This document shows positions 42,764 through 64,000 of a DNA stretch of 64,000 nt, in pieces (position 1 is the stretch's first letter; each line of letters opens with the position of its first letter). Location: the NCBI GenBank assembly GCA_020444265.1, contig JAHLLH010000002.1, forward strand, positions 609,033 to 673,032, read 5' to 3'. The DNA is from a bacterium (lineage in GTDB: Bacteria > Electryoneota > Electryoneia > Electryoneales > Electryoneaceae). Under the pieces are notes generated by a model. That model made no database searches. It was not told the origin of the DNA and saw nothing but the letters and a program-made list of their open reading frames with translations. The position numbers and the translations under genes are program-made.

Positions 42764-42780
42764 TTGGCACAAACTTCGCG
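42764..42780 (+). promoter_or_regulatory. Sigma-54-type promoter for the NifX/HdrD operon (A)
   Basis: TTGGCAC and TTCGC are arranged as GG-N10-GC (GG 42766-42767, GC 42778-42779). The -24 element is perfect and the -12 element has one mismatch to TTGC. The predicted transcription start, near 42791, gives a leader of about 45 bases to ATG 42836. Confidence 0.65.
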
Positions 42781-42835
42781 CTGTCTTTCTATCGATTGGA
42801 CCGGGATGCAACAGAGATATGCAACGGGATAGCCG

Positions 42836-43612
42836 ATGGTCAGCGTGGACTCACACCAGCAACGCATTGCTGTTCCCTGCTTCGGGGAAGAGGTGGCGCC
42901 GTTGTTCGGGGTGACCAGACGGTTCCGTGTCTGGGACATCGAGGGGGGACGTGTCGCGCATTACCGTGAGGTGGCGCTCGATGATGGCGGTCCCCTGGCT
43001 CGAACCCGACTCATGCGAAACCTCGAAGTGGATGTGATCCTCGCAAATGGCATTGAATCCCAACTGCGCCAGCTCCTCGAATCGGAAGGACGTCTGGTTA
43101 TCGAAGGAGTGGTGGGGACAGCGACCGATGCTCTCTATGGCTTCCTCGCCGGCAGGATTCAAGGGGTCAAGTTCAAGGGCCACACCTCCCCAAACCGTGC
43201 CCAGACTGCCGATGTCACCAGCTGGACGGAAGAGTTGTTGCGTGAGGGGGGCTGGAGCATCCGAACGGTGCATGAACCAGACATTTTTCCAGTCGATTTT
43301 GTCGGGGAACGTCCCTGCCCCATCTGCAACAAACCGGTCCGTATCGCCGTCTGCTGCGGATCGCATGCCTACCGTGTCGATGAAGAAATCCGTGAGTTTC
43401 AACGTGTCACGTCTGCCAATTACCATGCGCGCCTCTATGTCCACCAGGCACTGCCGTCCGTGGCACGGACCTGCACCGAATATGGCATTGAACTGCTGCC
43501 CCCCGACCGTTTCGCTGAGTTAAAAGAGGGCGGCTGGCATAATTGTGAGCTGCCGCCCCTGCGCGGAACCATCAAGGGACATCCCAGCTTGAACCGTTTT
43601 GCCACGGAGTGA
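42836..43612 (+). CDS. NifX/ORP-domain protein with cysteine-rich C-terminal extension
   Basis: 258 residues. Residues 8-120 resemble the dinitrogenase-cofactor-binding fold shared by NifX, NifB C-terminus and Desulfovibrio orange protein: RIAVPCFGEEVAPLFGV at the start and VDVILANGI later. The extension (about 155-258) begins with CPICNKPVRIAVCCGSHAY and contains a further conserved-looking Cys (RTCTEYGIELL). Such domains bind metal-sulfur clusters; here a cluster or redox-partner role is inferred. No nitrogenase genes are present. It is the first gene of the operon with the HdrD-like protein and follows a sigma-54-type promoter. Confidence 0.75.
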   Translation: MVSVDSHQQRIAVPCFGEEVAPLFGVTRRFRVWDIEGGRVAHYREVALDDGGPLARTRLMRNLEVDVILANGIESQLRQLLESEGRLVIEGVVGTATDALYGFLAGRIQGVKFKGHTSPNRAQTADVTSWTEELLREGGWSIRTVHEPDIFPVDFVGERPCPICNKPVRIAVCCGSHAYRVDEEIREFQRVTSANYHARLYVHQALPSVARTCTEYGIELLPPDRFAELKEGGWHNCELPPLRGTIKGHPSLNRFATE

Positions 43613-43626
43613 GAAAGGACTCGTTC

Positions 43627-45102
43627 ATGAACGCTGTCAGCGAGGAACGTCTGGCCAAAGCTTTTGCCATCCCGAAGAAGCCGGAGGTGGTCGAGGAGCA
43701 GAAACTGCCTGTCCGTTATCATGTCGAGACAGGGCTTGAAACCGAAGACCGTCCGAGAAAATTCCTTGAGGCGATGGCGGCGATTCTCAAACACTCCAAC
43801 TATGGTTTCGCGCTTGACCACTTCTCGCGCGTGTCCGCGAAGTGTTCCCGTTGCACGGTGGCTTGCCCGGTCTACCTCGCCACAGGGAAGACCGAGGATA
43901 TTCCCTGTAAGCGGTCTGCTTTGCTGCTGGATGTCTACAAACGGCATTTCACGGTAGGTGGCAAGCTGAAAGCACGTGTCTTGGGCGATCCGGGGTTGAC
44001 CGATGAGTCCATCCAGGAGATGGCGGATTCCTTCTACAACTGCACCGCCTGTCGAAGGTGTCCCAACGAGTGCCCGATGGGGATCGATCATGGTCTTATC
44101 ACCCATCTCGGTCGATACATCCTTGCCGAAATCGGGATCGCACCGAGAGCGTTGGTGGTCTCAACCCGAGAGCAACTTACGGGCCCGACAAAAAACACGT
44201 CAGCCATTCCCACACCCGCATTGATCGATGGCCTCGAGTTCATGGAAGAGGAAATCGAAGAGACCAAAGGGGTCAAGGTCAAATTCCCGATCGATGTTCA
44301 TGGGGCTGAATACCTCTTTGTCGCCCCGGTTTCTGACTACATGATGGAAGCGGAAACCCTGATGGGCATCGCCTGTGTTATGCACGCGACCGGCGGATCG
44401 TGGACGATTGGCACGGGCGATTACGACGCCATCAACTACGGCCTCTTTTACTCCGACCATGTGCTCGAGCACGTGTTGCAGCAGATGGAGGATGAGGCGG
44501 AACGGCTGGGTGTGAAGAAAATTCTGGTTGGCGAGTGCGGCCATGCCAGCCGGTCAGCGAAGTACTTCTACAACCAGTTTGCAACCCGGATGAAACGTCC
44601 CGTGGTCAACATTCTCGAATACACCCATGACGCATTGAAAGCCGGGAAGCTGAAGTTTGATACCGACATCATCAAGGACAAGGTCACCTACCACGATCCG
44701 TGCAATATCGCACGGCCCGGGTGGATTGTCGAACAGCCGCGTGAAATCATCCGCGCCTTCATCAAGGACTTTGTCGAAATGTCCCCGAATGGCCGGGACA
44801 ACTTCTGCTGCGGTGGTGGAGGCGGGACAGTCTCGATTGATGAAATCCGGCCGTACCGCACGACAGTCGGGGGACGGAAAAAAGCGGAACAAGTCGCGGC
44901 AACCGGGGCCAACTATGTAATCGCACCCTGCGCCAACTGCAAGAAGCAGTTCCGTGAAATCCTCGAGGATAACGAGGTCGACTGTGAATTAACCGGCCTG
45001 CACGATCTGATCTACAAGGCGATCATTCTCTCGGAGGATGGAATCGCCTGGCGTGACCCGATGGGCATGGGGGATGATGACTGGACCCCGCCGGAGGGGT
45101 AA
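43627..45102 (+). CDS. HdrD/DsrK/HmcF-like Fe-S oxidoreductase subunit (complex A)
   Basis: 491 residues from ATG 43627 (AAAGGA eight bases upstream; GTG 43609 is in frame). Two ferredoxin-type motifs occur (CSRCTVACPVY ... CKRS near residue 76 and CTACRRCPNECPMG near 140). A C-terminal CCG-type domain follows with HDPCNIAR, NFCCGGGGG and PCANCKKQF, the signature that binds the special Fe-S centre of heterodisulfide-reductase-type enzymes. There is no signal peptide, so it faces the cytoplasm. In Hmc, Tmc and DsrMKJOP complexes this subunit exchanges electrons with cytoplasmic thiol/disulfide partners and with the NarI-like cytochrome b, whose gene follows after a 322-base repeat-filled gap. 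Confidence 0.9.
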   Translation: MNAVSEERLAKAFAIPKKPEVVEEQKLPVRYHVETGLETEDRPRKFLEAMAAILKHSNYGFALDHFSRVSAKCSRCTVACPVYLATGKTEDIPCKRSALLLDVYKRHFTVGGKLKARVLGDPGLTDESIQEMADSFYNCTACRRCPNECPMGIDHGLITHLGRYILAEIGIAPRALVVSTREQLTGPTKNTSAIPTPALIDGLEFMEEEIEETKGVKVKFPIDVHGAEYLFVAPVSDYMMEAETLMGIACVMHATGGSWTIGTGDYDAINYGLFYSDHVLEHVLQQMEDEAERLGVKKILVGECGHASRSAKYFYNQFATRMKRPVVNILEYTHDALKAGKLKFDTDIIKDKVTYHDPCNIARPGWIVEQPREIIRAFIKDFVEMSPNGRDNFCCGGGGGTVSIDEIRPYRTTVGGRKKAEQVAATGANYVIAPCANCKKQFREILEDNEVDCELTGLHDLIYKAIILSEDGIAWRDPMGMGDDDWTPPEG

Positions 45103-45424: not shown

Positions 45425-46132
45425 GTGGATAGCTGGCTGGAGTTTGCAAGCGGACCTTTGTTCCGCCTCAGTTTCACCCTGATGCTGCTCGGCCTGGCAC
45501 GTGTGCTGTTCCTCTCGCTTGCGGGGATCAGCATTGCCTTGCGTCGAAGCGGTGACCGTGTCGTTCCCTGGGGCGATGCCTTTAGAAAAACGGTCAACTG
45601 GTTGTTTCCGGTCAATCGCGTCTGGAGGACACGTCCAATCTACAGCACAATTTCGGTGCTGTTCCATGTCGGGCTGATCCTGGTGCCGCTCTTCTATTCC
45701 GCGCACATCCTGCTGTTCCGTGAGTCGGTCGGTTTCGCCTGGCCGCTCGTCCTGCCACAGGCCTGGGCTCACAACCTGACCCTGTTGACCCTTATTGGGG
45801 CGGGATTGTTGTTCCTGGGAAGAGCCTTCGACAAGCGGGCCCGCGCCTTGTCGCGCCGAGGCGATTATCTCTGGCCGATCCTGCTGGCAGTGCCCTTCCT
45901 TACCGGCTACCTCTGCGCCAATGTCACTCTTTCCGCGCAGGGCTACCAGGTTTCGATGCTGGTCCACCTGCTCAGTGCCAACATAGTGATGCTGCTGATT
46001 CCCTTCACCAAAATCGCCCACTGTGTGCTGATGCCGTTGTCGCAGTATGTCAGCGCGGTGGCGTGGAAATTCCCGAAGGGCACGGGTGATCGTGTTGCTG
46101 CCACCCTCGGCAAGAAGGAGGTGCCGGTATGA
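45425..46132 (+). CDS. NarI/DsrM/HmcE-like membrane cytochrome b subunit (complex A)
   Basis: 235 residues from GTG 45425, preceded by GGGGGGAG. Five to six transmembrane helices are visible. Four histidines sit in two helices as in NarI-type dihaem cytochromes (SVLFHVGLILVPLFYSAHI, and MLVHLLSAN with a later TKIAHCVL). It would carry electrons between the membrane quinone pool and the HdrD-like subunit at the cytoplasmic face. The next gene starts in an overlap (ATGAG at 46129). A clear homologue is encoded at 59538-60236. Confidence 0.88.
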   Translation: MDSWLEFASGPLFRLSFTLMLLGLARVLFLSLAGISIALRRSGDRVVPWGDAFRKTVNWLFPVNRVWRTRPIYSTISVLFHVGLILVPLFYSAHILLFRESVGFAWPLVLPQAWAHNLTLLTLIGAGLLFLGRAFDKRARALSRRGDYLWPILLAVPFLTGYLCANVTLSAQGYQVSMLVHLLSANIVMLLIPFTKIAHCVLMPLSQYVSAVAWKFPKGTGDRVAATLGKKEVPV

Positions 46133-46935
46133 GCCAGCATGTCCAGGGAAACAAGGCGATTCTGACCGACACGACCAAGTGCATCGGCTGCCGTGAATGC
46201 GTGCTTGCCTGCAAGCAACGCAATAAACTCGAGCAGGATAAACCACGTCGCTGGTCGCTCGATGATGGCCTTTCCGCACGCAACTGGACCTCGATTGTTG
46301 AGCGTCCCGGCGGGGATTATGTCCGTAAACAATGTCGTCACTGCTTGGAACCCGCTTGTGTATCCGTCTGTCCGGTCGGTGCTCTCTCGAAGTCCGAAAC
46401 GGGAGCGGTGATCTACGATGGCGACAAATGCATGGGTTGCCGTTACTGCATGATGGCCTGTCCCTACGGCATCCCGCGCTACGATTGGGATTTGGCTGTG
46501 CCGTACGTGCGCAAATGCATTCTCTGCGACGATCAGGTGAAACAGGGCGGTTCCCCAGCCTGCACGGAAGCCTGTCCGACCGGTGCGACCATCTTCGGCA
46601 CACGTGATGAGTTGATCGTTGAAGCACGCCGTCGCATCGAAGCCGACCCGGACCGTTATGTGAACCACATCTGGGGCGAGGATGAGGTAGGCGGAACCTC
46701 CGTAATGATGATCTCGAACATTGACCTCAGCTTCCTCTCTTATGGCACGAAGCTCGACTCAACCCCGCTTCCGGCACGGACCAAAACCGCGATGGGTGCG
46801 GTACCGGCGGTCTTCGCCGGGATGGCCGCGACCATGACAGGCCTCCACTGGATCATCAAACGCCGGATGGAAAATCACGGAGCGGTCCCCACGGTTGAAG
46901 AAGAGGGTGACAACGGGAACGGAGGTGACGCATGA
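46129..46935 (+). CDS. Four-cluster ferredoxin subunit with C-terminal membrane anchor, DsrO/HmcB-like (complex A)
   Basis: 268 residues. Four [4Fe-4S] motifs are present: CIGCRECVLAC, CRHCLEPACVSVCP, CMGCRYCMMACP and CILCDDQ with a later CTEACP. This is the DmsB/PsrB/HybA-type electron-transfer subunit that partners NrfD-like proteins. No Tat or Sec signal is visible at the N-terminus. A single hydrophobic helix near the end (about 223-245) can anchor it. The lack of a signal suggests a cytoplasmic location, unlike DsrO; that is inference. Its gene overlaps the NrfD-like gene by four bases. Confidence 0.9.
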   Translation: MSQHVQGNKAILTDTTKCIGCRECVLACKQRNKLEQDKPRRWSLDDGLSARNWTSIVERPGGDYVRKQCRHCLEPACVSVCPVGALSKSETGAVIYDGDKCMGCRYCMMACPYGIPRYDWDLAVPYVRKCILCDDQVKQGGSPACTEACPTGATIFGTRDELIVEARRRIEADPDRYVNHIWGEDEVGGTSVMMISNIDLSFLSYGTKLDSTPLPARTKTAMGAVPAVFAGMAATMTGLHWIIKRRMENHGAVPTVEEEGDNGNGGDA

Positions 46936-48785
46936 ACCGCGCAAGGACGCTGAAAACCGTTCTCTGGACCATCACCGGCTTCGCGGCTGCGGTCGCTTTG
47001 ACACGGTTCGTGTTTGGTCTCGGGGCGACCACCAATCTGACCGATGGGGTCCCCTGGGGCTTCTGGATCGGCTTTGATGTGATGGGTGGTGTCGCTCTGG
47101 CGGCAGGCGGGTTTGTATTGACTGCGTTTGTCTACATCTTCAAACGCGAAGAGCTGCATCCGATCGTTCGCCCAGCGGTCTTGACCGCCTTCCTCGGCTA
47201 CCTCGCAGTCATTTTCGGCCTGCTGTTTGACCTTGGCCTGCCGTGGAACATCTGGCATATGATTGTCTGGTGGAACCCCCATTCTCCCTTGTTCGAGGTG
47301 GGCTGGTGTGTCATGCTCTACACCTCCGTGCTGGCCCTCGAATTCCTGCCGGTGCCGCTGGAGGATCAACCGCGCTGGCAGTCGATTCACCGTTTCCTGA
47401 GCAAGCTGCGGATTCCGTTGGTCATCACCGGGATCAGCCTCTCGACCCTGCATCAGTCCTCGCTGGGGACGTTGTTCACGATCATGCCGTACCGGGTCCA
47501 TCCCCTCTGGTACTCGCCGATCCTGCCTATCCTCTTCTTCCTTTCGGCGGTGATGCTGGGGTTGTTCATGGTCACGTTTGAATCGGAAACTACCTCCTGG
47601 ATCTACAAGAAGAAGCCGGAAACTCACCTGCTCGCAAAGCTGAACAAGGCGACCCCCTTCATCATCGGCCTTTACATCCTTGTCCGCTTCATTGACCTCG
47701 GAGTACGTGGGCAGTTGGGTGTGCTAGCAGAAGGTGGCTGGCAGGTTGGGATGTTCTGGGTCGAAATCCTCGCCTTCATGGCCTTGCCACTGTTGTTAAT
47801 GGCTATTCCGAAGTCACGAAACAACACCAACCTGCTCTGGACTGCATCCTGGCTGGGAGTTTTCGGGGTAGTGCTCAACCGGATCAACACCGGCGGCCTG
47901 ATGCACCAGGGTCGTGGGGTAGAAGCCTACCTGCCGGGCTGGACCGAAATCGCGATCAGCATCGGGGTGGTCTCTGCGGCGGCGTTGGTCTTCCTCTTTG
48001 TCATCGAGCATTTCAACATCCTCGATGCTCGTCCGGTTGACCCCGAGAAGGCTCCCACCGAGAAACCCCATTTTGAACCGGTGGGGATGGTCTGGCTCGG
48101 ATCGCCGGAAGTTTCAGCGCGGACTGGTTTCTCACTCGCCTTTGTGCTGGCGGCGGGAGTAGGGATGATGCTGCTTTCCGGCAAAACGGTTCGGAGCGAA
48201 GGTCTCGAACCGACCGTTGTAATCGCGGCACGTGGAGGGGATACGCTGTTTGTCGATGGGAACCGGGACGGTTACGGTGTCGCGTTCACCCATCAGCAGC
48301 ATGAACGTCGGATGATGGAAACCGAGGCGAATTGCGCCACCTGTCATCACATGAACCTGCCGGGCGACGAGCAGTCCAATTGTGCATCGTGCCATGCCGA
48401 CCAGTACATGACCACCGATGCTTTCGGGCATGACTGGCACTCCTCGCCTGCTGGTGGAAAACTGAGTTGCACACAGTGTCATGCAGCGGGCGAAGTGCGT
48501 TCTGCGGACAACGCGAAGCAGTGCGATGCCTGCCATACGGACCTGGTTCCCGAATATGCATCCATCGAGATCAACAGCTACGAAGCCCCAGCCTACACCG
48601 ATGCGATGCACAAACTTTGCATCGGTTGTCACCAGGAACAAGCGGTCGCCCTCGAGCAGGAAGGTTTGCCACGCTGCACTCAGTGTCATGGCGAGATGCG
48701 TAACGTGGTCACTGCCGATGCACGCAGTGTGCCGATACGGCCCGCGCCTGGTGTGGTGCTGCCTCCGTCGACGGTGGAGGAGTAA
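46932..48785 (+). CDS. NrfD/HybB-like membrane protein fused to a six-haem cytochrome c (complex A)
   Basis: 617 residues. The first 370 residues carry about ten transmembrane helices of the NrfD/HybB type (FGLGATTNLTDGVPWGFW near the start). An eleventh helix (about 398-418) leads to a C-terminal domain with six CxxCH haem motifs from Cys468 to Cys582 (CATCH, CASCH, CTQCH, CDACH, CIGCH, CTQCH). Eleven helices with a cytoplasmic N-terminus put the cytochrome in the periplasm, where haem attachment occurs. In Dsr and Hmc complexes the NrfD-like subunit and the cytochrome are separate proteins; here one chain does both. It would connect a periplasmic donor or acceptor with quinones. Confidence 0.9.
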   Translation: MNRARTLKTVLWTITGFAAAVALTRFVFGLGATTNLTDGVPWGFWIGFDVMGGVALAAGGFVLTAFVYIFKREELHPIVRPAVLTAFLGYLAVIFGLLFDLGLPWNIWHMIVWWNPHSPLFEVGWCVMLYTSVLALEFLPVPLEDQPRWQSIHRFLSKLRIPLVITGISLSTLHQSSLGTLFTIMPYRVHPLWYSPILPILFFLSAVMLGLFMVTFESETTSWIYKKKPETHLLAKLNKATPFIIGLYILVRFIDLGVRGQLGVLAEGGWQVGMFWVEILAFMALPLLLMAIPKSRNNTNLLWTASWLGVFGVVLNRINTGGLMHQGRGVEAYLPGWTEIAISIGVVSAAALVFLFVIEHFNILDARPVDPEKAPTEKPHFEPVGMVWLGSPEVSARTGFSLAFVLAAGVGMMLLSGKTVRSEGLEPTVVIAARGGDTLFVDGNRDGYGVAFTHQQHERRMMETEANCATCHHMNLPGDEQSNCASCHADQYMTTDAFGHDWHSSPAGGKLSCTQCHAAGEVRSADNAKQCDACHTDLVPEYASIEINSYEAPAYTDAMHKLCIGCHQEQAVALEQEGLPRCTQCHGEMRNVVTADARSVPIRPAPGVVLPPSTVEE

Positions 48786-48788: not shown

Positions 48789-50663
48789 ATGCTCGCAGTC
48801 GATGACATGATGAAGGATGGAACCTTCCATCTTGCCCTTTTCGAAGCCCTCCCGGTCAGTGTGGCCGTGGTGGACCGCGAGTGGCATGTCATCGCCGCGA
48901 ACAAAGCCTTCGAAGAGACCTTTGGCTACTGGAAGGGACGTACCTGCCACGAGGCATTCAAGAGTAACCCGGCGCGCTGCAAGAACTGCGAAGCACGAGC
49001 CGTATTCGAGGATGGACGGATCCGTGTCGGGGACCACCAGGGGTTGGATCGTTTCGGACGGGCTTGCGACTATGCGGTCCATTTTGCGCCGCTACGTGAT
49101 GAGAAGGGTGAGGTTACTCATATCCTCGAAGTTGCGAGCGATGTGACCGAAACCAAACGCTGGAAAGCGGAATACGACCGGCTGTTTGACAACGTTCCCT
49201 GTACGATCTCGATTCTGGATCGTGACCTGCGAGTTGTACGCGCCAACCGCAGCCTGGAAGAGACTTACGGCCGCGCGAAAGGGCATCCCTGCTTCAAGGT
49301 GTACAAGGGACGCACCACGCCCTGCGAGAACTGTCCGGCGATGCAGACTTTCAAGGATGGTCTCGAGCATCTTTCCCGTCAATCGGGACGGACTCCGGAT
49401 GGTGAGGAGACGCATTACATCGTCAGCACCTCACCCTTCACTTGGGACTCCGATGGTGTTGATCAGGTGATCGAGATATCGACCGATGTAACCCAGCTGC
49501 ATGTGCTCGAGGTGGAGCTGCGCGAAGCGCACGAACTCTACCAGAGTCTGATCTCGAACGCACGGGACGGCATCCTTGCTGTGGATACCGAAGGCAGTGT
49601 TCGCATTTTGAACGATGCGGCGAAACGTTTAATCGGCTGGGACCGGCCCGATCCACCCGATCCGATGACGCTTCGCATGATGCTTCCCGGCGACTTTTTC
49701 CTTCCGCGTGGCGAGATGGAGCAACGGCCCGATTATGAGTTTCGCATCCCCGCCCAGGAAGAGGGCGAAGGAGTCGATGCCAGCGGAGAAATCCCGGTCC
49801 TTTTCCGTGCGATCGAATTGGAGGGGGAGCGTCACTCCCTGGGACGAGCCGCCTTTCTTCAAGACCTGAGTGCACTGCGTACGCTGGAACGTGAAAAGCT
49901 CGACAATGAACGTCTCGCAGCGGTTGGGCAGACTGTTGCCGGGTTGGCGCACACGATCAAAAACCTGCTTATGGGCCTTGAAGGTGGCATGTACATGGTC
50001 GACTCAGGTTTGCAACGGGGTGATGCGGACCGCTTGAGCCAGGGTTGGGAAATGCTGCAGCGCAACTTCGAGAAAACCTCCTCGATGGTGCGTGACTTCT
50101 TGTCCTTTGCCAAGGGACGTGTGCCGAAGCTGGTGCACACAGACCCGTTGAAACTGATCCATGAAGTCGTGCAGCTTTACCGTGATACGGCAAAACGGCT
50201 TGGGGTAACCCTGAAGGTGGAAGAGGGGAAAACTCTCTTCGATGCGCCGTTGGATCGAGATGGGATCGAAGCCTGCCTGACCAATTTGATCAGCAATGCG
50301 ATTGATGCAGTTACCCTCGAGCAGGAAGGCGGCGGTGAGGTTTCGGTTCGTGCCTACGATGACGAGAGCAACTCACTCGTATTCGAGGTGCAGGACAACG
50401 GCATCGGGATGGAGAGCGAGGTCGCGAGGCAGGTATTTACCACCTTCTTTACGACCAAGGGTGGTAAGGGAACGGGTCTTGGCTTGCTGACGACACGGAA
50501 AATTGTGCAGGAGCACGGCGGGACGATTGAGCTGGATAGTGAACCGGGGGTGGGCAGCACCTTCCGGATATGCCTTCCACGTGAACGCCTCGAGGCGATA
50601 GCGTCGGAGCAGGCGAAACGTGACAAGAAGGCGGAGACGTACTCGAGTGGGGGGAGAACATAA
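48789..50663 (+). CDS. Soluble PAS histidine kinase with two cysteine-motif PAS domains
   Basis: 624 residues with no membrane helix. Three PAS domains are visible (about 8-125, 125-240, 245-370). The first two each carry C-x10-C-x2-C: Cys53/64/67 and Cys168/179/182. The kinase core has His388 (GLAHTIKNLLMG), NLISNAIDAV, DNGIG and GTGLGL, all intact. It starts three bases after the NrfD-cytochrome gene and is followed by two receiver genes, so it probably reports the redox state of complex A. Cysteine-bound clusters in the PAS domains are inferred from spacing only. Confidence 0.88.
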   Translation: MLAVDDMMKDGTFHLALFEALPVSVAVVDREWHVIAANKAFEETFGYWKGRTCHEAFKSNPARCKNCEARAVFEDGRIRVGDHQGLDRFGRACDYAVHFAPLRDEKGEVTHILEVASDVTETKRWKAEYDRLFDNVPCTISILDRDLRVVRANRSLEETYGRAKGHPCFKVYKGRTTPCENCPAMQTFKDGLEHLSRQSGRTPDGEETHYIVSTSPFTWDSDGVDQVIEISTDVTQLHVLEVELREAHELYQSLISNARDGILAVDTEGSVRILNDAAKRLIGWDRPDPPDPMTLRMMLPGDFFLPRGEMEQRPDYEFRIPAQEEGEGVDASGEIPVLFRAIELEGERHSLGRAAFLQDLSALRTLEREKLDNERLAAVGQTVAGLAHTIKNLLMGLEGGMYMVDSGLQRGDADRLSQGWEMLQRNFEKTSSMVRDFLSFAKGRVPKLVHTDPLKLIHEVVQLYRDTAKRLGVTLKVEEGKTLFDAPLDRDGIEACLTNLISNAIDAVTLEQEGGGEVSVRAYDDESNSLVFEVQDNGIGMESEVARQVFTTFFTTKGGKGTGLGLLTTRKIVQEHGGTIELDSEPGVGSTFRICLPRERLEAIASEQAKRDKKAETYSSGGRT

Positions 50664-51172
50664 TGACAGACCACGACAGCAGGCTGATCCTTGTGGTGGA
50701 TGACGAGGAAGATGTACGCCGTTACCTGACCCTCGCCCTCGAGGATGCTGGGTTCAATGTGGTAACGGCGTCGGATGGCTTCCAGGCGATGGAAGTTCTT
50801 CAGAATTCACAGGTGGACTTGATATCACTTGACCTGGTGATGCCGAAACGGTCCGGGGCTGCATTTTACCGAGATCTGCAACGGGTTCCAGAATTCAAAT
50901 CGATTCCTGTTCTCATTGTGACCGGGCATGCTCGAGATGATGATGGAAAGGCTGATTTTGAAGAGCTGACCATGTCAGGTCCAGGCATTTACCTCGAAAA
51001 ACCAGTTCGTCCGGACAACTATGTCGCCAATGTTCGAAAACTGCTGGGAATCGAAGAGGAGTCAGGCGGAGATGAACAGCCGGAAAATCTGCGTCAACAG
51101 CTTGAAGAGCATTTGAAGACGGCTGACAGCGAAGCGCTGCAACGTGCGCTGGATGCCTTGAAACGTCAATAA
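50663..51172 (+). CDS. Single-domain response regulator with C-terminal tail
   Basis: 169 residues. The receiver domain spans 1-128 with acidic pocket DDEED, acceptor Asp57 (LISLDLVMPK), Thr in VTGHA and Lys in YLEKPV. The remaining 40 residues form a short charged helix and no DNA-binding or enzymatic output. It starts within the stop codon of the kinase gene (TAATG overlap), so the two are surely partners. Confidence 0.9.
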   Translation: MTDHDSRLILVVDDEEDVRRYLTLALEDAGFNVVTASDGFQAMEVLQNSQVDLISLDLVMPKRSGAAFYRDLQRVPEFKSIPVLIVTGHARDDDGKADFEELTMSGPGIYLEKPVRPDNYVANVRKLLGIEEESGGDEQPENLRQQLEEHLKTADSEALQRALDALKRQ

Positions 51173-53097: not shown

Positions 53098-53127
53098 AGT
53101 CAACTCTCCTGGGGGGGCGAGGCAAAG

Positions 53128-55796: not shown

Positions 55797-55840
55797 GCGA
55801 TGCCTGGAACTCAGAAAAGCAAATAGAGGAGAGTTTAGAC

Positions 55841-56746
55841 GTGAAACAGGTGGTCATCATCAGTGGCAAGGGGGGGACGGGGAAGACGAGTCTGACCGCA
55901 TCCTTTGCACGGTTGGCGGAGCATGTGATTTGTGCAGACTGCGATGTGGATGCCTCGGATTTGCACCTGCTGTTAACACCGCAAGAGACAGTTCGTTACC
56001 CCTTTGTAAGTGGGTACCAGGCAGTTGTTGATCCTGATCTGTGTGATGGTTGCGGCATCTGCGAAACCGTCTGTCGTTTCGATGCGATCCACCTTGTTCC
56101 CGGAACCAATGGTGATGGTATCCAGGCAAAGGCGACAACGAGTTGTGAGGGGTGCGGAGTTTGTATCCATCTCTGCCCTCAACAGGCGATTCAGGCAGAT
56201 GATCGAAGGTGTGGTGAGTGGATGGTTTCCACGACACGGATCGGCACAATGGTTCATGCACGCCTGCAGCCCGGGGGAGAAAACTCGGGCAAACTGGTGA
56301 CCACAGTCCGTAACCATGCTTCCAAGCTGGCAGAGGAACAAGGCGTGGAAATGGTGCTGGTGGACGGTCCGCCGGGAGTAGGATGCCCGGTTATTGCGGC
56401 CATCACAGGGACCGATCTGGTTGTTGTGGTCACCGAACCAACCGTCTCCGGTGTTCATGATCTTGAGCGTGTCCTGGCACTCGCCGGGCACTTCGAGGTT
56501 CCGGTAATGGTCTGCACGAATAAATGGGATCTCAACCCAGGGATGACTGAACAAATCGAGAAGGTAGCTATTCACGCAGGAGCGCAGGTCGCGGGCCGTA
56601 TTCGGTATGATGCCGAGGTCACCATCGCCCAGATGGAACAACTTACCGCTATCGAATGGAACAGTCCTTCTTCAGGAGATATTCGCCTGGTCTGGCAGGC
56701 GATCGAGGAACGGGTCAGCGCATTGCCCGTTTCGCCGGGGGGGTGA
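55841..56746 (+). CDS. MinD/Mrp-superfamily ATPase with inserted two-cluster ferredoxin domain (second)
   Basis: 301 residues from GTG 55841, chosen because AGAGGAGAG lies about eight bases upstream and the protein then starts MKQVVIISGKGGTGKT like its homologues; a GTG at 55793 would add 16 residues. Walker A is at 9-16 with signature Lys10. The insert has CDGCGICETVC and CEGCGVCIHLCP. It is a paralogue of the previous gene, and the two probably form a heterodimer. It ends 21 bases before the tail of the leftward complex B operon. Confidence 0.9.
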   Translation: MKQVVIISGKGGTGKTSLTASFARLAEHVICADCDVDASDLHLLLTPQETVRYPFVSGYQAVVDPDLCDGCGICETVCRFDAIHLVPGTNGDGIQAKATTSCEGCGVCIHLCPQQAIQADDRRCGEWMVSTTRIGTMVHARLQPGGENSGKLVTTVRNHASKLAEEQGVEMVLVDGPPGVGCPVIAAITGTDLVVVVTEPTVSGVHDLERVLALAGHFEVPVMVCTNKWDLNPGMTEQIEKVAIHAGAQVAGRIRYDAEVTIAQMEQLTAIEWNSPSSGDIRLVWQAIEERVSALPVSPGG

Positions 56747-56767: not shown

Positions 56768-58759
56768 TCACAACCCCCGTTTTTTGGCAGCCAGCTCCAC
56801 CAGGGATGATGCGGCATCCAGTTTTTCACCCTCCTCGGGGCGAGGTTTGAATCCCGGCATCGGTTGATGGCAGGTGGTGCAACGGTCCAGGTCGGGACGA
56901 CCAGCTGCCTCTTTTTCTTTCCTATGGCACTCGATACAGGTCTGATGCATGGCGGAGTGGTAGCTCGACGCGTGCATCAGGCCATTTGGATCGTCAGGCG
57001 GATCGACGGGATGCATGTCCTCACGGTGACATTCGAGGCACCCTTTCGCTGTCGACGCAGCGTGGTACGCACCCAATGTGTGGCAACAGGCGCAGCTCTG
57101 GTTTTCCGGTTGCAACCCGTGAAATTGCTCCGCCGCTGCGACAGCCGCTGTGTGATGGTCATGGTCGAAAAGGGGGCTGCGCTCCTCCATCGCGACATGG
57201 CAGTGCGAGCAGGGAGTTGCCTGATCCCCCGGCAGGGTCAGGTGATGGCATGAGGTGCAAGAGGTCTCAGTACCAAGCCGTTGCCTGTGTTCGGCATGCG
57301 CAAAGAGCACTTCATACCCGTTCCGGTTGGCATCGATTCGCAGGGTGTCCCGTTCACTATCAAGCGCGAGGGGAGGAGAAACAGGTTCTGGAGTTTCGGG
57401 CCAGTAGGGCGGATAGAGCAGCCACCATGAGATGGGCAGGACAATCAGCGCGATCAGGGTTACTCGTTCGAATCCCGTGAGCAGACGATGGTTCCAGACA
57501 CGGGTCAGTCGATCAAATGAAGAGCCGAGAGCGAGTTGGGTGTCCGAGACGGGTTTCCGATGGTTTGTGAAGATCGAAAACTGTTCGACGATGAAGAAGA
57601 AGGCAAGCCCGGCCATCGCCAGCACACCGACTGTGATCGCCCATTCGATGAGGGATGGGAAATAGACTTCGCCCGCATCACGGAAGTAGCCGAAGATGCC
57701 GACGTTCATACGGTTCAGTGCCAGTCCCGATGCGCCGAGACCGCAGACGAAGGCGAGGCCATTCGCTGAGTGACGGACTCGTTGCGAAAAGATCAGACCA
57801 ATCGGCAGCACGGTCGCGATCAGCATTTCGGAGAGGAAAAGCCAACTCTCCCAAGTGCCCTCAAACAGCGCTGAAGACGCCTCGGGACGAAGGAGCAAAT
57901 CGGCAAGTTTTAAGATCAGATATAGGGTGAGGACAACACTTCCGGCAATCGCAAGCGCACGTACCTCGCGCAAAGGAGAAGCGCTCGCAGGTTCACCGTC
58001 GGTAGCGGACTCTGGGTCAGTGGCGCAAACCATGCTTTGCTTCCTCTGGATTCCAACGATCAGCTCACCTGGAGTGTACCACCAGTGGTAAAGCAGCTTG
58101 ATGAGGCCGAGTAGCATCATTCCGCCACCCATCGCAGAGATGATGAAGAGCAGCGAAATCATCGGGCTGTACCACAGCACATGTAGCCGTTGCGGAGTCA
58201 CCAGGAAGAGGGATCCCAGCGAGGTGTGGTGCAAACTGGATAGGGTAATCCCGATCACCACCAGCCAGGGTGCAGCTTTTTTCAGACTGTGCTGCAAACG
58301 AGTCATCCGAGTCCGTTCCAGCAGGGAGGGGCTCAGTTCGAAGAAGGTGACGAGAAAATAGAAGGAGACACACCAGAAAACTTCGAAGAGGAAACTGTGG
58401 GGATTCCAGAAGACAAACGGGTGCCAGAAACGCCAGGGAAGGCCGATGTCAAAAAGCAGAGCAAAGAGCGATGAGCCATAGCCAAGGAAGGCGACCAGGA
58501 TAGCCGGTTTGACCAGACGGTCAAAGGGTTTGATGTGCAGCACGTGGCCGAGAAAACCGATGGTGAAGCCGCTCGTAGCAAGGGCGGCGCCGCCCACCAT
58601 ATTGAAGATTTTCCACAAACCCCAGGGGACATGGTCATCGAGATTCGTGGTGGCACCGAGCCCGAAGATGAACCGGAAAAGCATGGCCAGCAGGCCAGCA
58701 AACACACACACCCAGAGGATATCCTTCACTCGCCGTGTACGATCCAGCGTCTCCATCAT
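56768..58759 (-). CDS. NrfD/HybB-like membrane protein fused to a six-haem cytochrome c (complex B)
   Basis: 663 residues from ATG 58759, which overlaps the ferredoxin stop (TGATG) and has AGGGAG just upstream; ATG 58756 is an alternative. The NrfD-type helices (FGLGATTNLDDHVPWGLW) are followed by a hydrophobic segment and six CxxCH motifs from Cys501 to about 631 (CTSCH, CSHCH, CACCH, CLECH, CIECH, CTTCH). It has the same architecture as the complex A protein, with a longer soluble loop near residues 225-260. The conserved fusion in both copies shows it is not an assembly artefact. Likely periplasmic cytochrome, quinone-linked membrane part. Confidence 0.9.
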   Translation of the reverse strand: MMETLDRTRRVKDILWVCVFAGLLAMLFRFIFGLGATTNLDDHVPWGLWKIFNMVGGAALATSGFTIGFLGHVLHIKPFDRLVKPAILVAFLGYGSSLFALLFDIGLPWRFWHPFVFWNPHSFLFEVFWCVSFYFLVTFFELSPSLLERTRMTRLQHSLKKAAPWLVVIGITLSSLHHTSLGSLFLVTPQRLHVLWYSPMISLLFIISAMGGGMMLLGLIKLLYHWWYTPGELIVGIQRKQSMVCATDPESATDGEPASASPLREVRALAIAGSVVLTLYLILKLADLLLRPEASSALFEGTWESWLFLSEMLIATVLPIGLIFSQRVRHSANGLAFVCGLGASGLALNRMNVGIFGYFRDAGEVYFPSLIEWAITVGVLAMAGLAFFFIVEQFSIFTNHRKPVSDTQLALGSSFDRLTRVWNHRLLTGFERVTLIALIVLPISWWLLYPPYWPETPEPVSPPLALDSERDTLRIDANRNGYEVLFAHAEHRQRLGTETSCTSCHHLTLPGDQATPCSHCHVAMEERSPLFDHDHHTAAVAAAEQFHGLQPENQSCACCHTLGAYHAASTAKGCLECHREDMHPVDPPDDPNGLMHASSYHSAMHQTCIECHRKEKEAAGRPDLDRCTTCHQPMPGFKPRPEEGEKLDAASSLVELAAKKRGL

Positions 58760-59541
58760 CAACTCCCTGGTTCATCATTCGGCAATTTCGCAGACCCTTC
58801 CGCTCCCTTTGCCTGTTCCATCCTACGCTTGACAATCCAGTTCAATCCGACTACCGCGGTGAGCACACTACCTCCGATCCAGGGGGTGGCATGGAGGACA
58901 GGTGCAACAGTAGCCGGGATGGAATCAGCATTCTGCTCTGGCCATCCGAGCTCGTGCAGGTCCACATCGGAGATGTAGAGCACCCCGGTACCCCCGAATT
59001 CGGACTCACCGTAGATATGGTCCAGATAGCGGTCTGGTTCGGAGGTAATCCGGCGTCGCGCTTCAGCGAGCATTACTTCCCGTGAACCAAAGGTGATCGC
59101 ATTTTCGGGGCAAGCTTCGTAACAGGCGGGTGGTTTCCCTGCTTCAAGACGTGCGAAACACCAGTCGCATTTCCGGACAAGCGGAGTTGTGCTGGACCAC
59201 TCGTATCGTGGAATGTGAAACGGACAGGCGAGCATGCAATAGCGGCAACCAATGCACTTGTCCCCATCATAGACCACAGCACCGAGCTCGTTTCGTGTCA
59301 GCCCGCCGACAAGGCAGGCGGAAACGCAGCTCGGTTCGAGGCAGTGCATGCAAGCCTTTTTCGCAAATCGTGTCCAGCCGATAGTTTCGACGGTGGAGAG
59401 GCGGTTTTCCGATAAGCCATCCAGGGCGGTAGCACGGTCCCGGTCAGCTAAGCGTGGGTCAATGCCATTCTGCTTGACACAGGCAGCAACACACTCCTCA
59501 CAGCCGATGCAACGGGTAACATCGATCAGCATGCCGCTCAT
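58759..59541 (-). CDS. Four-cluster ferredoxin subunit with C-terminal membrane anchor (complex B)
   Basis: 260 residues, homologous to the complex A ferredoxin along its whole length. Cluster motifs are CIGCEECVAAC, CMHCLEPSCVSAC, CIGCRYCMLACP and CDWC with a later CYEACP. The second motif ends ACLVGG rather than the usual CPVGA, so a proline after the last Cys is lost. No signal peptide; one hydrophobic helix near the end (WIGGSVLTAVVGLNWIV). It is coupled to both neighbours by overlapping codons. Confidence 0.9.
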   Translation of the reverse strand: MSGMLIDVTRCIGCEECVAACVKQNGIDPRLADRDRATALDGLSENRLSTVETIGWTRFAKKACMHCLEPSCVSACLVGGLTRNELGAVVYDGDKCIGCRYCMLACPFHIPRYEWSSTTPLVRKCDWCFARLEAGKPPACYEACPENAITFGSREVMLAEARRRITSEPDRYLDHIYGESEFGGTGVLYISDVDLHELGWPEQNADSIPATVAPVLHATPWIGGSVLTAVVGLNWIVKRRMEQAKGAEGSAKLPNDEPGS

Positions 59542-60236
59542 ATTTTCGCCCCCTTCCCGAAGAGTGTTTCTGCTACACGGTCACCCGCTCCAGGCTTGAG
59601 CTGCCAGTGCATCTCCGAAATGCGGTCGAAGAAGAAGAGGACGATGTGCGATAGCTTGGTCAACGGCACCAGGACAAAGAGGAGTTCGGCGCTGAGTAAA
59701 TGCATCAGGAACATCGCCTGCCAGGGCAGCGGATTCATGGTGGGATGCGCTGCAAAAAAACCAGTGAGGAAAGGTAGCAGGACCACGATCAGTACGGCTG
59801 TGTCCGAGGAACGATTAATCGTTCGCAGCTTAGTATTTCCTAGACGGCTTGCCAGCAGAACCAGCAGGGCGAGGATGGTGATGATGGTCAAGGTGTCCGC
59901 GACCGTTGCACTGAGTGCAGGAAGGGAAACAGCGAACAGCTTCTCCCACAAGGCGATATGGCCCGCGTAAAAGAGAGGAACCAGGATCGCCCCAATGTGA
60001 AAAATAAAGGAAGAATTGGAGAAGAGGACGTTGCCGCTGGTCAGGTGACGGATGGGCACAACCCAGCCGAGGGAATCACGTGCCATTTTGCGCCAGGGCA
60101 TGTGCCGCAGCCTGCCCGCTTTTCTGCGAAACAGCGTGTCGAGCTGCTGGATAAGGTGACGTAGCAGTCCGATCAGCATGAAAAGAAAGGTCACGGCGAA
60201 AAGAGGACCCATCGCGAGGTCTATCCAAGTGCGCAT
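59538..60236 (-). CDS. NarI/DsrM/HmcE-like membrane cytochrome b subunit (complex B)
   Basis: 232 residues with five to six transmembrane helices. The four putative haem-ligand histidines are conserved relative to the complex A copy (SFIFHIGAILVPLFYAGHI, and FLMHLLSAE with TKLSHIVL). Start and stop are tightly spaced with the HdrD-like gene (10 bases) and overlap the ferredoxin gene by four bases, so the order K-M-ferredoxin-NrfD is the same as in complex A. Confidence 0.88.
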   Translation of the reverse strand: MRTWIDLAMGPLFAVTFLFMLIGLLRHLIQQLDTLFRRKAGRLRHMPWRKMARDSLGWVVPIRHLTSGNVLFSNSSFIFHIGAILVPLFYAGHIALWEKLFAVSLPALSATVADTLTIITILALLVLLASRLGNTKLRTINRSSDTAVLIVVLLPFLTGFFAAHPTMNPLPWQAMFLMHLLSAELLFVLVPLTKLSHIVLFFFDRISEMHWQLKPGAGDRVAETLFGKGAKI

Positions 60237-60246: not shown

Positions 60247-61677
60247 TCACATCGCGTAGAGTTGAGCTTCTTCGAGACGTTCCTCGGCGCTCTTCCCGCC
60301 GGGGATCTCGATTGCTTTCAGGATGAGGTCGTGCAGCCCCATGATTTCACACGGAATTTCGTAGTGCTCGACCAATTCCTTGAGCTGTTTTTTGCAATTC
60401 GCGCAGGGTGCGATGCAGATATCCGCCCCGGTTGCGATCAGCTGTTCTGCTTTCTTACGTCCCCCAACTTCCATGCGGTAGTCGTGAATCTCATCGATGG
60501 ATACCAACCCACCGCCACCCCCACAGCAATAGTTCAACTTCCCACCGGGAGTCATTTCGACATAATCTTTGACGAAGGATTTCAGGATCTCACGTGGCTG
60601 ATCGACAATCCATCCCCCTCGTGCGATGTTGCACGGGTCATGATAGGTGACCTTCTGGGTGATGATGTTGGGGTTGAGTGTGATCTTGCCTTTGCGCAGG
60701 CAGTCGAGGGTGTACTCGATGAAGCTGACGACGGGGGAGGGTCGTTTCCCGCCGAAGACCGGCACAAAATCGTGCGCGGAACGGGAAGCATGGCCACATT
60801 CACCGATCAGCAGATTTTTACCGTTGAGACGTTCCACTTCTCCAACTAGCTGCTTGATGATGCGTTCGAGATGCCAGTCGCTATAGAAGAGGCCGTAATT
60901 AATGCCATCGTAGTTGCAGGAGCCGATGGTCCAGCGGTCCCAGTCACCGGCGGCGTAGAGTACTGCGAGATTGCCGAGCAGGGTGTCCGGTTCCATCAGG
61001 TAATCGCTGACAGCGCAGAAGAAGACGAAATCACGGTCCTGTTTGTCGACCGGCACCTCCACCTGCAGACCAAACTGGTCCTCCAGCTCTTCCTGCAAAA
61101 ACTCCAGCGTGTTGAGCATGGCAACCTTTGGAATCTTCGAGGTGTTGTGAGTTTCACCCTCAAGCTGCTCGCGTACGCTGACCTGCAGCGCTTTCGATGA
61201 GATGCCCGCAAGGCTGAGGATGTAGCGGCCAAGTCGTGTGATCAGACCATGATCCATCCCCATCGGGCATTCCAGCGTACACCTCCGGCAGGCGGTGCAA
61301 CGATAAAAGACATCCGCCATCTCGAGGATGATCTCCTCGGTCAGTTCGAAGGCGTGTGTGTTGAATTGGGAACGCATCCAGCCACCAAGCGAGAAATAGC
61401 GCTGGTAGACCTGAAGCAGCAGGGTGGTCTTGTAGCAGGGAACATCCCGTGCTTCCCCTGTCACCTGGTAGACCGGGCAGGTGACCGAGCAACGATTGCA
61501 CTTGTTAGTCGTCCGGCAGTAGGAGTCGAGCAGGGGTTTGTAATCGGTATGCTCGAGGATGGCGGCGAAGGCATCCAGAAATCGTTCCACCAACCCAGTT
61601 GCAGGTGGGTTTTCGACATAATAGGGCAGTCGTTCACGCAACATCTGCTGGGAGGCATTTTCGACAGTTTCGGGCAT
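60247..61677 (-). CDS. HdrD/DsrK/HmcF-like Fe-S oxidoreductase subunit (complex B)
   Basis: 476 residues, first gene of the leftward operon. Ferredoxin motifs are CNRCSVTCPVY ... CYKT and CTACRRCTLECPMG; the CCG-type domain has HDPCNIAR, NYCCGGGGG and PCANCKKQL. All key cysteines match the complex A copy. AGAGAG precedes the ATG. A sigma-54-type promoter lies about 40 bases upstream, so complex B should be under sigma-54 control. Confidence 0.9.
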   Translation of the reverse strand: MPETVENASQQMLRERLPYYVENPPATGLVERFLDAFAAILEHTDYKPLLDSYCRTTNKCNRCSVTCPVYQVTGEARDVPCYKTTLLLQVYQRYFSLGGWMRSQFNTHAFELTEEIILEMADVFYRCTACRRCTLECPMGMDHGLITRLGRYILSLAGISSKALQVSVREQLEGETHNTSKIPKVAMLNTLEFLQEELEDQFGLQVEVPVDKQDRDFVFFCAVSDYLMEPDTLLGNLAVLYAAGDWDRWTIGSCNYDGINYGLFYSDWHLERIIKQLVGEVERLNGKNLLIGECGHASRSAHDFVPVFGGKRPSPVVSFIEYTLDCLRKGKITLNPNIITQKVTYHDPCNIARGGWIVDQPREILKSFVKDYVEMTPGGKLNYCCGGGGGLVSIDEIHDYRMEVGGRKKAEQLIATGADICIAPCANCKKQLKELVEHYEIPCEIMGLHDLILKAIEIPGGKSAEERLEEAQLYAM

Positions 61678-62128: not shown

Positions 62129-62155
62129 TTGCTCAGTGGTGAAAGGAGCAGGACC

Positions 62156-63160
62156 ATGCGTTTCGGAATACCCCTACATGGTGATCGTGTTGCCCCACGG
62201 TGTACCCATGCGGACGGGATGCTGGTCGTCATTTTACGCCAGGGACGATTGGCTGATGAGTTCAGGATGGATGCCCAGATCGATACGATCGAGGATCTGA
62301 CCGAGATCGTGCGGCAGCTCAATCTCGACGTTCTTATTTGCGGGGGGGTCAACCAGGGGGCACGTTCCGCGCTGGAACCCCTGGTAGGGGCGATCCTGGC
62401 CAACCGTTCGGGAAGCAAAGAAGAAATCCGGTCCTGGCTGATCTCCGGTAAAGTCGTGCCGTCGAGTGAAGATCTCCTTTCCTTTGAGATGGAGGATGGT
62501 GCGGGGGAGCGAGATGTTGATTGCCTTGCCTGCCCCAACCCGGTTTGCCTTGACACAGGCGGTTGTATCCTTACTCCCGTTCAGTCAGTCATTCCAAGTG
62601 AGATTGACCAGGCGATGCTCGATCTGGCACAAGACCTGAACTTTGAAGATGACCGTCGTCTCTGTCGTCTATCCGAATTGGTCTACTTCTGTCTGGAGAT
62701 GGGGTACCACACTCTCGGGGTCGCCTATTGTTCCGATCTGCATCACCCTGCCACGATTCTGACCAGCGTGCTTCGAAGGTTCTTTCATGTCCACCCAGTC
62801 AGTTGCAAACTGCGGGTAGCTGCATCTGAGGATAGGGACAACTCCTCTTCTCCTGCTGAACTGTCAAGGTCCTGCAATCCCCTCGCCCAGGCTGCTGCCC
62901 TCAACCGGAAAGAGACAGACCTCAATATTTTAGTTGGCCTCTGCATCGGTGCTGACTGTGTCTTCTCAAAGGCAAGTCTTGCACCGGTGACCACTTTGTT
63001 CAACAAGGATCGCGCCCTAGCAAACAACCCGATTGGCGCGATCTATTCCGAACGGTATCTGCGCGAAGCGATGGAGTCCGGGGGGGCGGTACGATCCAAT
63101 GAACGTTCCCCCTATTCCATGGCATCTGCCCAGCTTTCCAAAGAAAGGATCGTACGATGA
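62156..63160 (+). CDS. NifX/ORP-like domain fused to a DUF1847 metal-binding-type domain
   Basis: 334 residues from ATG 62156 (AAAGGAG upstream and a sigma-54-type promoter that places the transcript start after the longer in-frame start at 62072). Residues 1-110 have the NifX/ORP fold (MRFGIPLHGDRVAPRC, LDVLICGGVNQGA). A cysteine segment (CLACPNPVCLDTGGC, about 122-137) leads into a domain resembling DUF1847. Its features are LSELVYFCLEMGYHTLGVAYCSDL, the CNPLAQAAALNRKETDLNIL region, and LCIGADCVFSKASLAPVTTL. DUF1847 proteins of anaerobes are uncharacterised and Cys-rich. The fusion suggests both domains act on one metal or sulfur cofactor. Confidence 0.75.
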   Translation: MRFGIPLHGDRVAPRCTHADGMLVVILRQGRLADEFRMDAQIDTIEDLTEIVRQLNLDVLICGGVNQGARSALEPLVGAILANRSGSKEEIRSWLISGKVVPSSEDLLSFEMEDGAGERDVDCLACPNPVCLDTGGCILTPVQSVIPSEIDQAMLDLAQDLNFEDDRRLCRLSELVYFCLEMGYHTLGVAYCSDLHHPATILTSVLRRFFHVHPVSCKLRVAASEDRDNSSSPAELSRSCNPLAQAAALNRKETDLNILVGLCIGADCVFSKASLAPVTTLFNKDRALANNPIGAIYSERYLREAMESGGAVRSNERSPYSMASAQLSKERIVR

Positions 63161-63687
63161 CCATGCCTGCCCTGCAATCCATCGGCTTATGTGTCCACTA
63201 TTCTCCCCAGGGAGATTGGGCGTTCGACTTTGCGCTTCGCCTGGTACGGGAGCGTGACATCCAGTTCAATATCTTTCATTTCCTCGCCGACCCCTTCAAC
63301 CCGAATGATCATCCCCCGCAGAATCTCGGAAAAAAGGAACTGGACGATTTGATTGTTGAACGGGAACGTGAGCTGCGTTTCTACTACGATGATCGGCTCG
63401 GGGACCACCTGAAAGCGGGATTTCGTCTCTGCGAAGACAACGAGTGGAGTGAACTTCACCACTGTCTTCTGCGACGTGAATTCCAACTGCTGGTCATGCC
63501 CTACCCGGAAGCAGGTGCGACCTTCGGTAGACGCAATCTCGAGGAATTCGCATCAAATTTCGTTTCGCCGATCGTTCTGGTTGGCCCCAATCATCCGGAC
63601 GAAATCCATTTGAACACCCAGGCTGTTCTGCTGAATGATATCCATCATGTCTCGGGGGCGTCCGGGTTGGTCCTCAGTGATGGCTAA
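63157..63687 (+). CDS. Hypothetical protein, possibly universal-stress-protein-like
   Basis: 176 residues, starting in an ATGA overlap with the NifX-DUF1847 gene. The alternating strand-helix pattern (SIGLCVHYSPQGDWAFDFA, then FNIFHFLADPF, then FQLLVMPYPE and SPIVLVGP) resembles a Usp/HUP nucleotide-binding fold. The usual G-x2-G-x9-G-S/T loop is not clear, so nucleotide binding is doubtful. Translational coupling implies a function with the upstream protein. The 92-base gap after it shows nothing notable. Confidence 0.5.
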   Translation: MTMPALQSIGLCVHYSPQGDWAFDFALRLVRERDIQFNIFHFLADPFNPNDHPPQNLGKKELDDLIVERERELRFYYDDRLGDHLKAGFRLCEDNEWSELHHCLLRREFQLLVMPYPEAGATFGRRNLEEFASNFVSPIVLVGPNHPDEIHLNTQAVLLNDIHHVSGASGLVLSDG

Positions 63688-63779
63688 AAGTCTGAACGGA
63701 TGAGGCCATCGGTGGGGTTCATCGCTACCTTCCGGTATCCCCCCAACTGTGCCTCCCCAGATTGAAGCTTGGATACGCT

Positions 63780-64000
63780 ATGGATGACGTGATCAGCAGG
63801 ATCATCTTCCAATCCATTCGTGATGGTGTATTCACCGTCAACAAGGATTGCAGGATTACCTCCTTTAATCCCGCCGCGGAAGAGATTACTGGCTTCACTC
63901 GTGACGAGGCTGTTGGGAAGCACTGCTTCGATATATTCCGGACAGAAGTCTGCCATACTCATTGCGCGCTTAAGGATACCTTGAAGAGCAAGGAACCGAT
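63780..64000 (+). CDS. OrpR-like PAS sigma-54 activator, N-terminal part (copy C, runs off the window)
   Basis: The frame from ATG 63780 is open to the last base (73 complete codons). The visible PAS domain matches copies A and B closely (IRDGVFTVNKDCRITSFN, PAAEEITGFTRDEAVG) and has Cys49, Cys58 and Cys62 in the same C-x8-C-x3-C spacing. The AAA+ and helix-turn-helix parts are expected beyond the window but not seen. It is the third such regulator, again next to a NifX-domain gene. Confidence 0.75.
   Translation, partial: MDDVISRIIFQSIRDGVFTVNKDCRITSFNPAAEEITGFTRDEAVGKHCFDIFRTEVCHTHCALKDTLKSKEP

Follow-up and report, generated by a model that had tools for sequence, protein, structure and literature searches.

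A four-gene, Hmc/Dsr-like membrane complex with NifX-fold partners, present twice around an ORP-type gene block in an Electryoneota genome

Why do two copies of a respiratory gene cluster enclose a set of genes of the ORP type, known in Desulfovibrio? The question is raised by a 64,000-nucleotide stretch of a bacterial genome (the window, G000:C11:609033-673032; G000 is the 4.33 Mb source genome, and other G and L numbers designate genomes and loci). The source belongs to the Electryoneota, an uncultured phylum of the FCB (Fibrobacteres-Chlorobi-Bacteroidetes) group, of which 39 genomes were examined. In the window, a central ORP-type block is bordered by two paralogous operons, A on the plus strand and B on the minus strand. 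Both have the same order: an HdrD-like subunit, a NarI-like subunit, a four-cluster ferredoxin and an NrfD protein fused to a hexaheme cytochrome c. We consider it fairly probable that each operon encodes an Hmc-like, quinone-linked complex of sulfite/sulfate respiration, and that the NifX/ORP proteins around it are cluster sensors or maturation factors. The gene set and the two same-order operons, one reading right and one left, had been described in an original prediction. This observation is confirmed; its interpretation is partly supported.

Membership of the subunits in known families was judged by bit score against the curated NCBIfam cut-offs (score/cut-off below). The Hmc/Dsr-like nature proposed for the complexes was borne out, in that the best-scoring models for complex A are DsrK for HdrD (305/400), HmcE for NarI (118/275), HmcB for the ferredoxin (241/420, aligned from model position 35) and HmcC for the NrfD-cytochrome (305/550), all of them below cut-off. 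The same holds for TmcB (218/735) and HmcF (197/750) with HdrD, and for TmcC (109/240), DsrO (95/200) and DsrP (39.5/350). Complex B is also below the DsrK, HmcF and TmcB cut-offs, and its NrfD-cytochrome reaches 216/550 with HmcC. Cofactor ligands, counted over 75-89 homologues per subunit, are strongly conserved. The cytochrome domain fused to NrfD carries six CxxCH motifs in every full-length homologue of the phylum, together with 12 conserved candidate heme-ligand histidines, enough for six bis-histidine hemes. Four histidines of NarI, corresponding to two b hemes, are kept in at least 94% of 85 sequences. The ferredoxin has 16 invariant cysteines (four clusters). HdrD contains two ferredoxin-type motifs and one complete CCG motif, and its cluster cysteines do not vary among 75 homologues.

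The HdrD subunits of A and B are ~55% identical. In a quick tree that contained no authentic Hmc or Tmc outgroup, they form one clade apart from DsrK (Shimodaira-Hasegawa-like approximate likelihood-ratio test, SH-aLRT, 99). Because HdrD B groups in this tree with Omnitrophota and Chloroflexota sequences, A and B are old paralogues. A recent duplication is ruled out by the ~55% identity and by the deep split, which is common to other phyla. A search of the phylum of G082 with the HmcF model gave nothing above cut-off. As judged from sequence, the four-gene complex is a so far unnamed variant in the Hmc/Tmc/Dsr family, with a repeated and unexpected connection to NifX. We could not find a description of an NrfD-cytochrome fusion complex or of a NifX-HdrD linkage in the open-access literature, where absence is not proof; neither 'fused' nor 'fusion' appears in a review of NrfD complexes (PMC8076601).

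The complex was found in at least eight phyla. Module A occurs in the same order in Electryoneota genomes and in Zixibacteria, Ignavibacteria and Myxococcota records. Among 50 carriers outside Electryoneota, picked by similarity of the complex and thus not a random sample, 44 have dsrA above the curated cut-off (549-607 bits). Within Electryoneota, the complex is present in 18 of 20 dsr-positive genomes versus at most three of 19 dsr-negative ones, of which two are fragments (p 3e-6 or less, ignoring shared ancestry). The G052 phylum, to which the Zixibacteria loci belong, has it in 30/47 dsr-positive versus 7/85 dsr-negative genomes (p 2e-11, again ignoring ancestry). The phylum of G060, whose locus is titled Bacteroidetes, was sampled over 296 genomes. 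There, dsrA exceeds the cut-off in 45 genomes, and the complex occurs once, in the only genome with dsrA above 540 bits, around which the sample was centred. It is found in none of the 44 genomes with dsrA at 480-522 bits, which we take to be Chlorobia-like oxidative forms. dsrA and the complex lie within the same ~20 kb locus in nine cases (L105, L106, L109, L113, L115, L118, L119, L130, L132; titled Bacteroidetes, one Kryptoniota), and a true DsrK stands beside the complex in two Acidobacteriota loci, L094 and L103.

The source genome itself carries complete dsrAB and dsrMKJOP outside the window, which the original prediction had not mentioned, as is known for some Electryoneota members (PMC10439189). 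The true dsrA, dsrB, dsrM, dsrK, dsrO and dsrP are located at C1:23060-36136, with DsrMKJOP at C1:30989-36136. DsrK, DsrO and DsrP score 731, 307 and 453 bits, and a DsrJ-like gene with three CxxCH motifs is found between dsrK and dsrO. A small gene directly after dsrB, in the dsrD position (G000:C1:25297-25671; L214 15298-15672), has no match in Pfam or NCBIfam, and the direction of the Dsr pathway was therefore deduced from the DsrA score only.

How would such a complex work? Periplasmic electrons, from hydrogenase, formate dehydrogenase or c-type cytochrome pools, would enter the NrfD-fused hexaheme cytochrome and be exchanged to or from menaquinone at NrfD. The NarI-type di-heme b subunit would then hand them on to the HdrD-like subunit in the cytoplasm, whose CCG-type cluster would reduce a thiol/disulfide carrier. 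DsrC-trisulfide or a related carrier is a plausible candidate, and the reaction would run alongside that of the genome's true DsrMKJOP. By analogy with Hmc, the complex likely connects menaquinone and a pool of periplasmic cytochromes with a thiol carrier in the cytoplasm. What was directly observed is the gene content, its synteny in several phyla, the conservation of cofactor ligands and the co-occurrence with dsrA; the electron-transfer part of the model is well supported at the sequence level. The direction of the electrons and the substrate of HdrD are what we infer. Loss of the Hmc complex impairs growth on hydrogen, and Hmc is implicated in hydrogen-to-sulfate electron transport (PMC10924467).

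Alternatively, the complex may function mainly outward, with the hexaheme cytochrome passing menaquinol electrons on to acceptors in the periplasm or outside the cell; the co-occurrence with dsrA would then reflect shared anaerobic habitats. The fused multiheme c domain agrees with this possibility, as it is necessarily periplasmic because heme attachment requires the periplasm. However, an HdrD-type CCG subunit implies a thiol partner in the cytoplasm, the dsrA association holds across phyla and within Zixibacteria, and dsr genes share a locus with the complex in 11 cases. An outward function is unlikely.

The second part of our reading, a sensing or maturation role for the NifX/ORP proteins, starts from the gathering of their genes. 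Three of the four PF02579 matches of the 4.33 Mb genome fall within these 20 kb, and modules recur in relatives; the cluster is therefore not due to chance. The original prediction counted two NifX proteins in the central set. These are indeed present, but a third is the first gene of operon A (NifXa) and a fourth, fused to DUF1847, faces complex B. Among 60 loci with enough upstream sequence to be informative, 26, from several phyla, have a NifX gene immediately ahead of HdrD. Three architectures were observed: NifX with a cysteine-rich domain (A), NifX-DUF1847 (B; Electryoneota and Omnitrophota L137) and a double NifX (Chloroflexota L148). In L148, PadR-like and XRE/cupin-like regulators as well as DUF5320-like and ferredoxin genes also surround the same complex.

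The predicted structure of NifXa has a predicted local distance difference test (pLDDT) score of 88. In this model, the N-domain matches the orange protein of D. gigas (2wfb, Z 15.3) as well as NifEN-bound NifX (9ian, Z 11.9). The C-terminal alpha/beta domain is closest to AF1548 (1y88, Z 10.1), with restriction-endonuclease-like folds at lower Z; an endonuclease-like fold is tentatively assigned to it. The C-domain displays the cysteine pattern CPxC..CC..C; Asp154, Cys161, Cys164, Cys174, Glu184 and Cys213 are invariant and Cys173 is nearly so. As a hypothesis drawn from this model, NifXa may be a metal-cluster sensor built on an endonuclease-like scaffold. The N-terminus of the NifX-DUF1847 protein has the NifX fold according to hhalign (99.6%, E 1e-23); a structure predicted from two sequences has pLDDT 36, and no fold is claimed from it. 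The corresponding gene is divergent from complex B here and on the same strand, directly upstream, in L137.

Sigma-54 control accompanies these genes. A scan for -24/-12 sites (N4 spacer, at least 10 of 12 matches) found sites upstream of NifXa in 31% of loci, several of which are duplicates of the same genome, versus 1.4% of shuffles, and never upstream of HdrD. In the window, the site upstream of NifXa has 9/12 matches, below the threshold. The sigma-54 activator of module A is upstream of the same NifX gene in relatives too, with 62-69% identity, and an additional one belonging to module B lies just beyond the window (L067). A fifth NifX-fold gene of the source genome (G000:C16:365551; L066 7585-9794) is divergent from a sigma-54 activator. 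The NifX genes of this genome thus seem to sit beside sigma-54 regulators.

The central block was correctly recognized as ORP-type: it contains paired MinD-type ATPases with two ferredoxin motifs each, NifX/ORP-fold proteins and a divergent sigma-54 activator. It ends ~20 bases from the end of complex B. In four genera (G000, G017, G006, G020) the block lies next to complex B, and in one more genus (G018) next to complex A. It is unlinked to the complex in G013, and it could not be placed in G003 and G021 because of short contigs. Hence the proposed link between ORP genes and complexes is not confined to this assembly, but it is not constant either, and complexes are found on both sides of the block only in G000. 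The ORP MinD gene (MinD-type ATPase 2) is present in 15 of the 39 genomes, namely 8/8 with complex B versus 7/31 without it (Fisher p 1e-4, ignoring ancestry). The original prediction further proposed a redox-gated MinD-type ATPase system wired to quinones. Its emphasis on MinD was misplaced. In most cases the complexes are found without any ORP/MinD block, and across phyla they go with dissimilatory sulfite reductase. The partner most conserved alongside the complex is a dedicated NifX-fold protein and not the MinD pair.

We suggest that cytoplasmic metal-cluster-binding proteins are encoded both by the NifX gene before HdrD and by the ORP block, which includes two ferredoxin-MinD ATPases. 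Acting with the sigma-54 activators and the kinase-regulator set, these proteins would supply the cluster-rich complexes with clusters and/or sense the redox or Fe-S (Mo/Cu) status. Such cluster traffic is plausible, since MrpORP of D. vulgaris transfers Fe-S clusters to the ORP complex in vitro (PMC6345978).

Several observations weigh against the respiratory reading as a whole. Besides the shared ancestry that the dsrA p-values ignore, six of the 50 non-Electryoneota carriers have no dsrA above cut-off, their genomes being possibly incomplete. No match to the complex was found in 17/47 dsr-positive Zixibacteria and 2/20 dsr-positive Electryoneota, and the complex is therefore not required for Dsr metabolism. 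HmcB itself carries a twin-arginine translocation (Tat) signal. No credible Tat signal was detected at the ferredoxin N-terminus in 90 homologues, and the membrane side of this subunit, lacking the HmcB/HybA signal, is thus uncertain. Finally, 34 of the 60 informative loci have no NifX gene directly upstream of HdrD, and Acidobacteriota as well as most Bacteroidetes-titled loci carry the complex without an adjacent NifX gene. Together with an ORP block that is often absent, or unlinked as in G013, those 34 loci would also fit the idea that NifX genes and ORP block are mere neighbours of the complex, brought there as a side effect of regulatory or sulfur-metabolism islands. Yet the NifX genes that precede or face HdrD come in three architectures, found in different phyla, and all eight complex B genomes possess the ORP MinD gene, which makes simple neighbourhood improbable. 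Least probable of all is a spatial system of the kind proposed for Desulfovibrio ORP, in which the MinD-type ATPases position the respiratory complexes or the septum according to redox state: like its D. vulgaris counterpart, the block does combine both ferredoxin-insert MinD-type ATPases with a divergent sigma-54 regulator (in D. vulgaris, ORP was linked to cell division and MrpORP is polar, PMC6345978), and it adjoins complexes in five genera, but many complex A genomes lack it, several ORP-bearing genomes lack the complex, and the NifX protein alone is the more widely conserved partner.

Outside Desulfobacterota, most lineages with dsrAB are uncultured, and Desulfovibrio serves as the model from which their electron routes are guessed. 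A complex accompanying dsrA in several phyla, in addition to canonical DsrMKJOP, is a concrete candidate for electron transfer. We tentatively put forward, as a possibility to be taken seriously, that this unnamed cross-phylum complex is a standard part of reductive Dsr metabolism in many non-Desulfobacterota sulfite/sulfate reducers, served by dedicated NifX-fold proteins, among them one with a fused cysteine-rich, endonuclease-like domain. If so, ORP/NifX proteins would be regulators or maturation factors of respiration and not of cell division. For the ORP/COG1433 family, which still lacks a clear role, the recurrent NifX partner also suggests a function that can be tested.

Table 1. Genes of the two modules and of the ORP-type block, with positions in the window
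Feature	Position	Strand	Evidence
Sigma-54-dependent PAS/AAA+ activator, module A	41069..42484	+	PF00158 E 1.1e-63
NifX/ORP-fold protein NifXa, 258 aa, first gene of operon A	42836..43612	+	PF02579 E 2.8e-7
HdrD/DsrK/HmcF-like iron-sulfur subunit A	43609..45102	+	CCG and Fer4_8 domains
NarI/HmcE-like di-heme b membrane subunit A	45425..46132	+	PF02665
HmcB/HybA-like four-cluster ferredoxin A, hydrophobic C-tail, no Tat signal	46129..46935	+	HmcB model match
NrfD (HmcC/HybB-like) with C-terminal class III-type hexaheme cytochrome c, A	46932..48785	+	NrfD E 3.9e-22, Cytochrom_CIII E 1.4e-13
PAS histidine kinase, operon A	48789..50663	+	PF02518/PAS; syntenic in relatives
Response regulator, operon A	50663..51172	+	PF00072 E 2e-22
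Second response regulator (single domain), operon A	51202..51585	+	PF00072 E 1.7e-20
OrpR-like sigma-54 activator, divergent from ORP block	51739..53262	-	PF00158 E 1.3e-70
NifX/ORP-fold protein with Cys/Arg tail	53294..53671	+	PF02579 E 3.5e-9
DUF5320 protein	53702..54046	+	PF17253 E 3.3e-22
NifX/ORP-fold protein	54481..54843	+	PF02579 E 2.5e-22
MinD-type ATPase 1, 2x[4Fe-4S] ferredoxin insert (Orp3/4-like)	54882..55796	+	CbiA and Fer4
MinD-type ATPase 2, 2x[4Fe-4S] ferredoxin insert	55793..56746	+	CbiA and Fer4
NrfD fused to hexaheme cytochrome c, complex B	56768..58762	-	NrfD E 7.9e-11, Cytochrom_CIII E 4e-8
Four-cluster ferredoxin B, no Tat signal	58759..59541	-	PF13247 E 4.9e-22
NarI/HmcE-like subunit B	59538..60236	-	PF02665 E 1.7e-5
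HdrD-like subunit B	60247..61677	-	CCG E 3.8e-11
NifX-fold N-terminus fused to DUF1847, partner gene of complex B	62156..63160	+	DUF1847 E 5.7e-29; hhalign
Usp-like protein beside DUF1847 gene	63157..63687	+	named by eye from sequence; syntenic in six relatives

Module A reads entirely on the plus strand, from its sigma-54 activator and NifXa through the four complex genes to a histidine kinase and two response regulators; this last set (48789-51585) had gone unmentioned in the original prediction. Module B consists of the complex on the minus strand, the divergent NifX-DUF1847 gene and the Usp-like gene. Rfam and tRNA scans of the window gave no matches. Ferredoxins A and B both retain a HybA-like hydrophobic C-tail, and no operon partner with a Tat signal was seen. 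Elsewhere in the source genome, an additional HdrD/DsrK-like protein (~540-630 aa), forming its own clade, is encoded at G000:C8:12925-14253 (L211). Its homologues (L084, L107, L111, L114, L115, L119, L139, L145) are 57-64% identical across phyla, and the gene often lies near the fused complex. It is possibly the 'dsrK-2' of earlier papers. Additional copies of dsrK or dsrM have been listed in genome papers on two such lineages (PMC6338057, PMC10439189); some of these copies may represent different DsrMK-like paralogues and not the fused complex. Two more HybAB/HmcBC-like ferredoxin-NrfD pairs, devoid of a fused cytochrome, are located at G000:C16:197317-198387 and 161006-162094 (L064, L065).

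Comparison with known systems places the locus as follows. The ORP-type block resembles the Desulfovibrio ORP system (Orp3, 4, 5, 8, MrpORP, OrpR) by its two ferredoxin-MinD ATPases, its NifX-fold proteins and its divergent sigma-54 activator. It differs by its DUF5320 protein, by its position next to respiratory complexes with extra NifX proteins and by the lack of a MrpORP fusion in the window, where no scanned protein passes the model for this Mrp-NifX fusion (NF041136; best 41 bits, cut-off 450). With Tmc, the complex shares an HdrD-like and NarI-like pair associated with a multiheme cytochrome c, but it has in addition NrfD and a four-cluster ferredoxin, and it stays below the TmcB and TmcC cut-offs. 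DsrMKJOP has the same types of modules and occurs in the same genomes, and DsrK is the best match of the HdrD-like subunit. However, the complex falls below the DsrK, DsrO and DsrP cut-offs, its HdrD clade is separate from DsrK and it has no triheme DsrJ. Hmc (HmcABCDEF, Desulfovibrio) has a separate 16-heme HmcA where the present cytochrome is hexaheme and fused to NrfD. Gene order, the ferredoxin devoid of a Tat signal, the NifX partner and scores below the NCBIfam cut-offs for all subunits also distinguish the complex from Hmc. Nevertheless, both combine HmcF-, HmcE-, HmcB- and HmcC-like subunits with a class III-type multiheme cytochrome, and both occur in dsr-bearing genomes.

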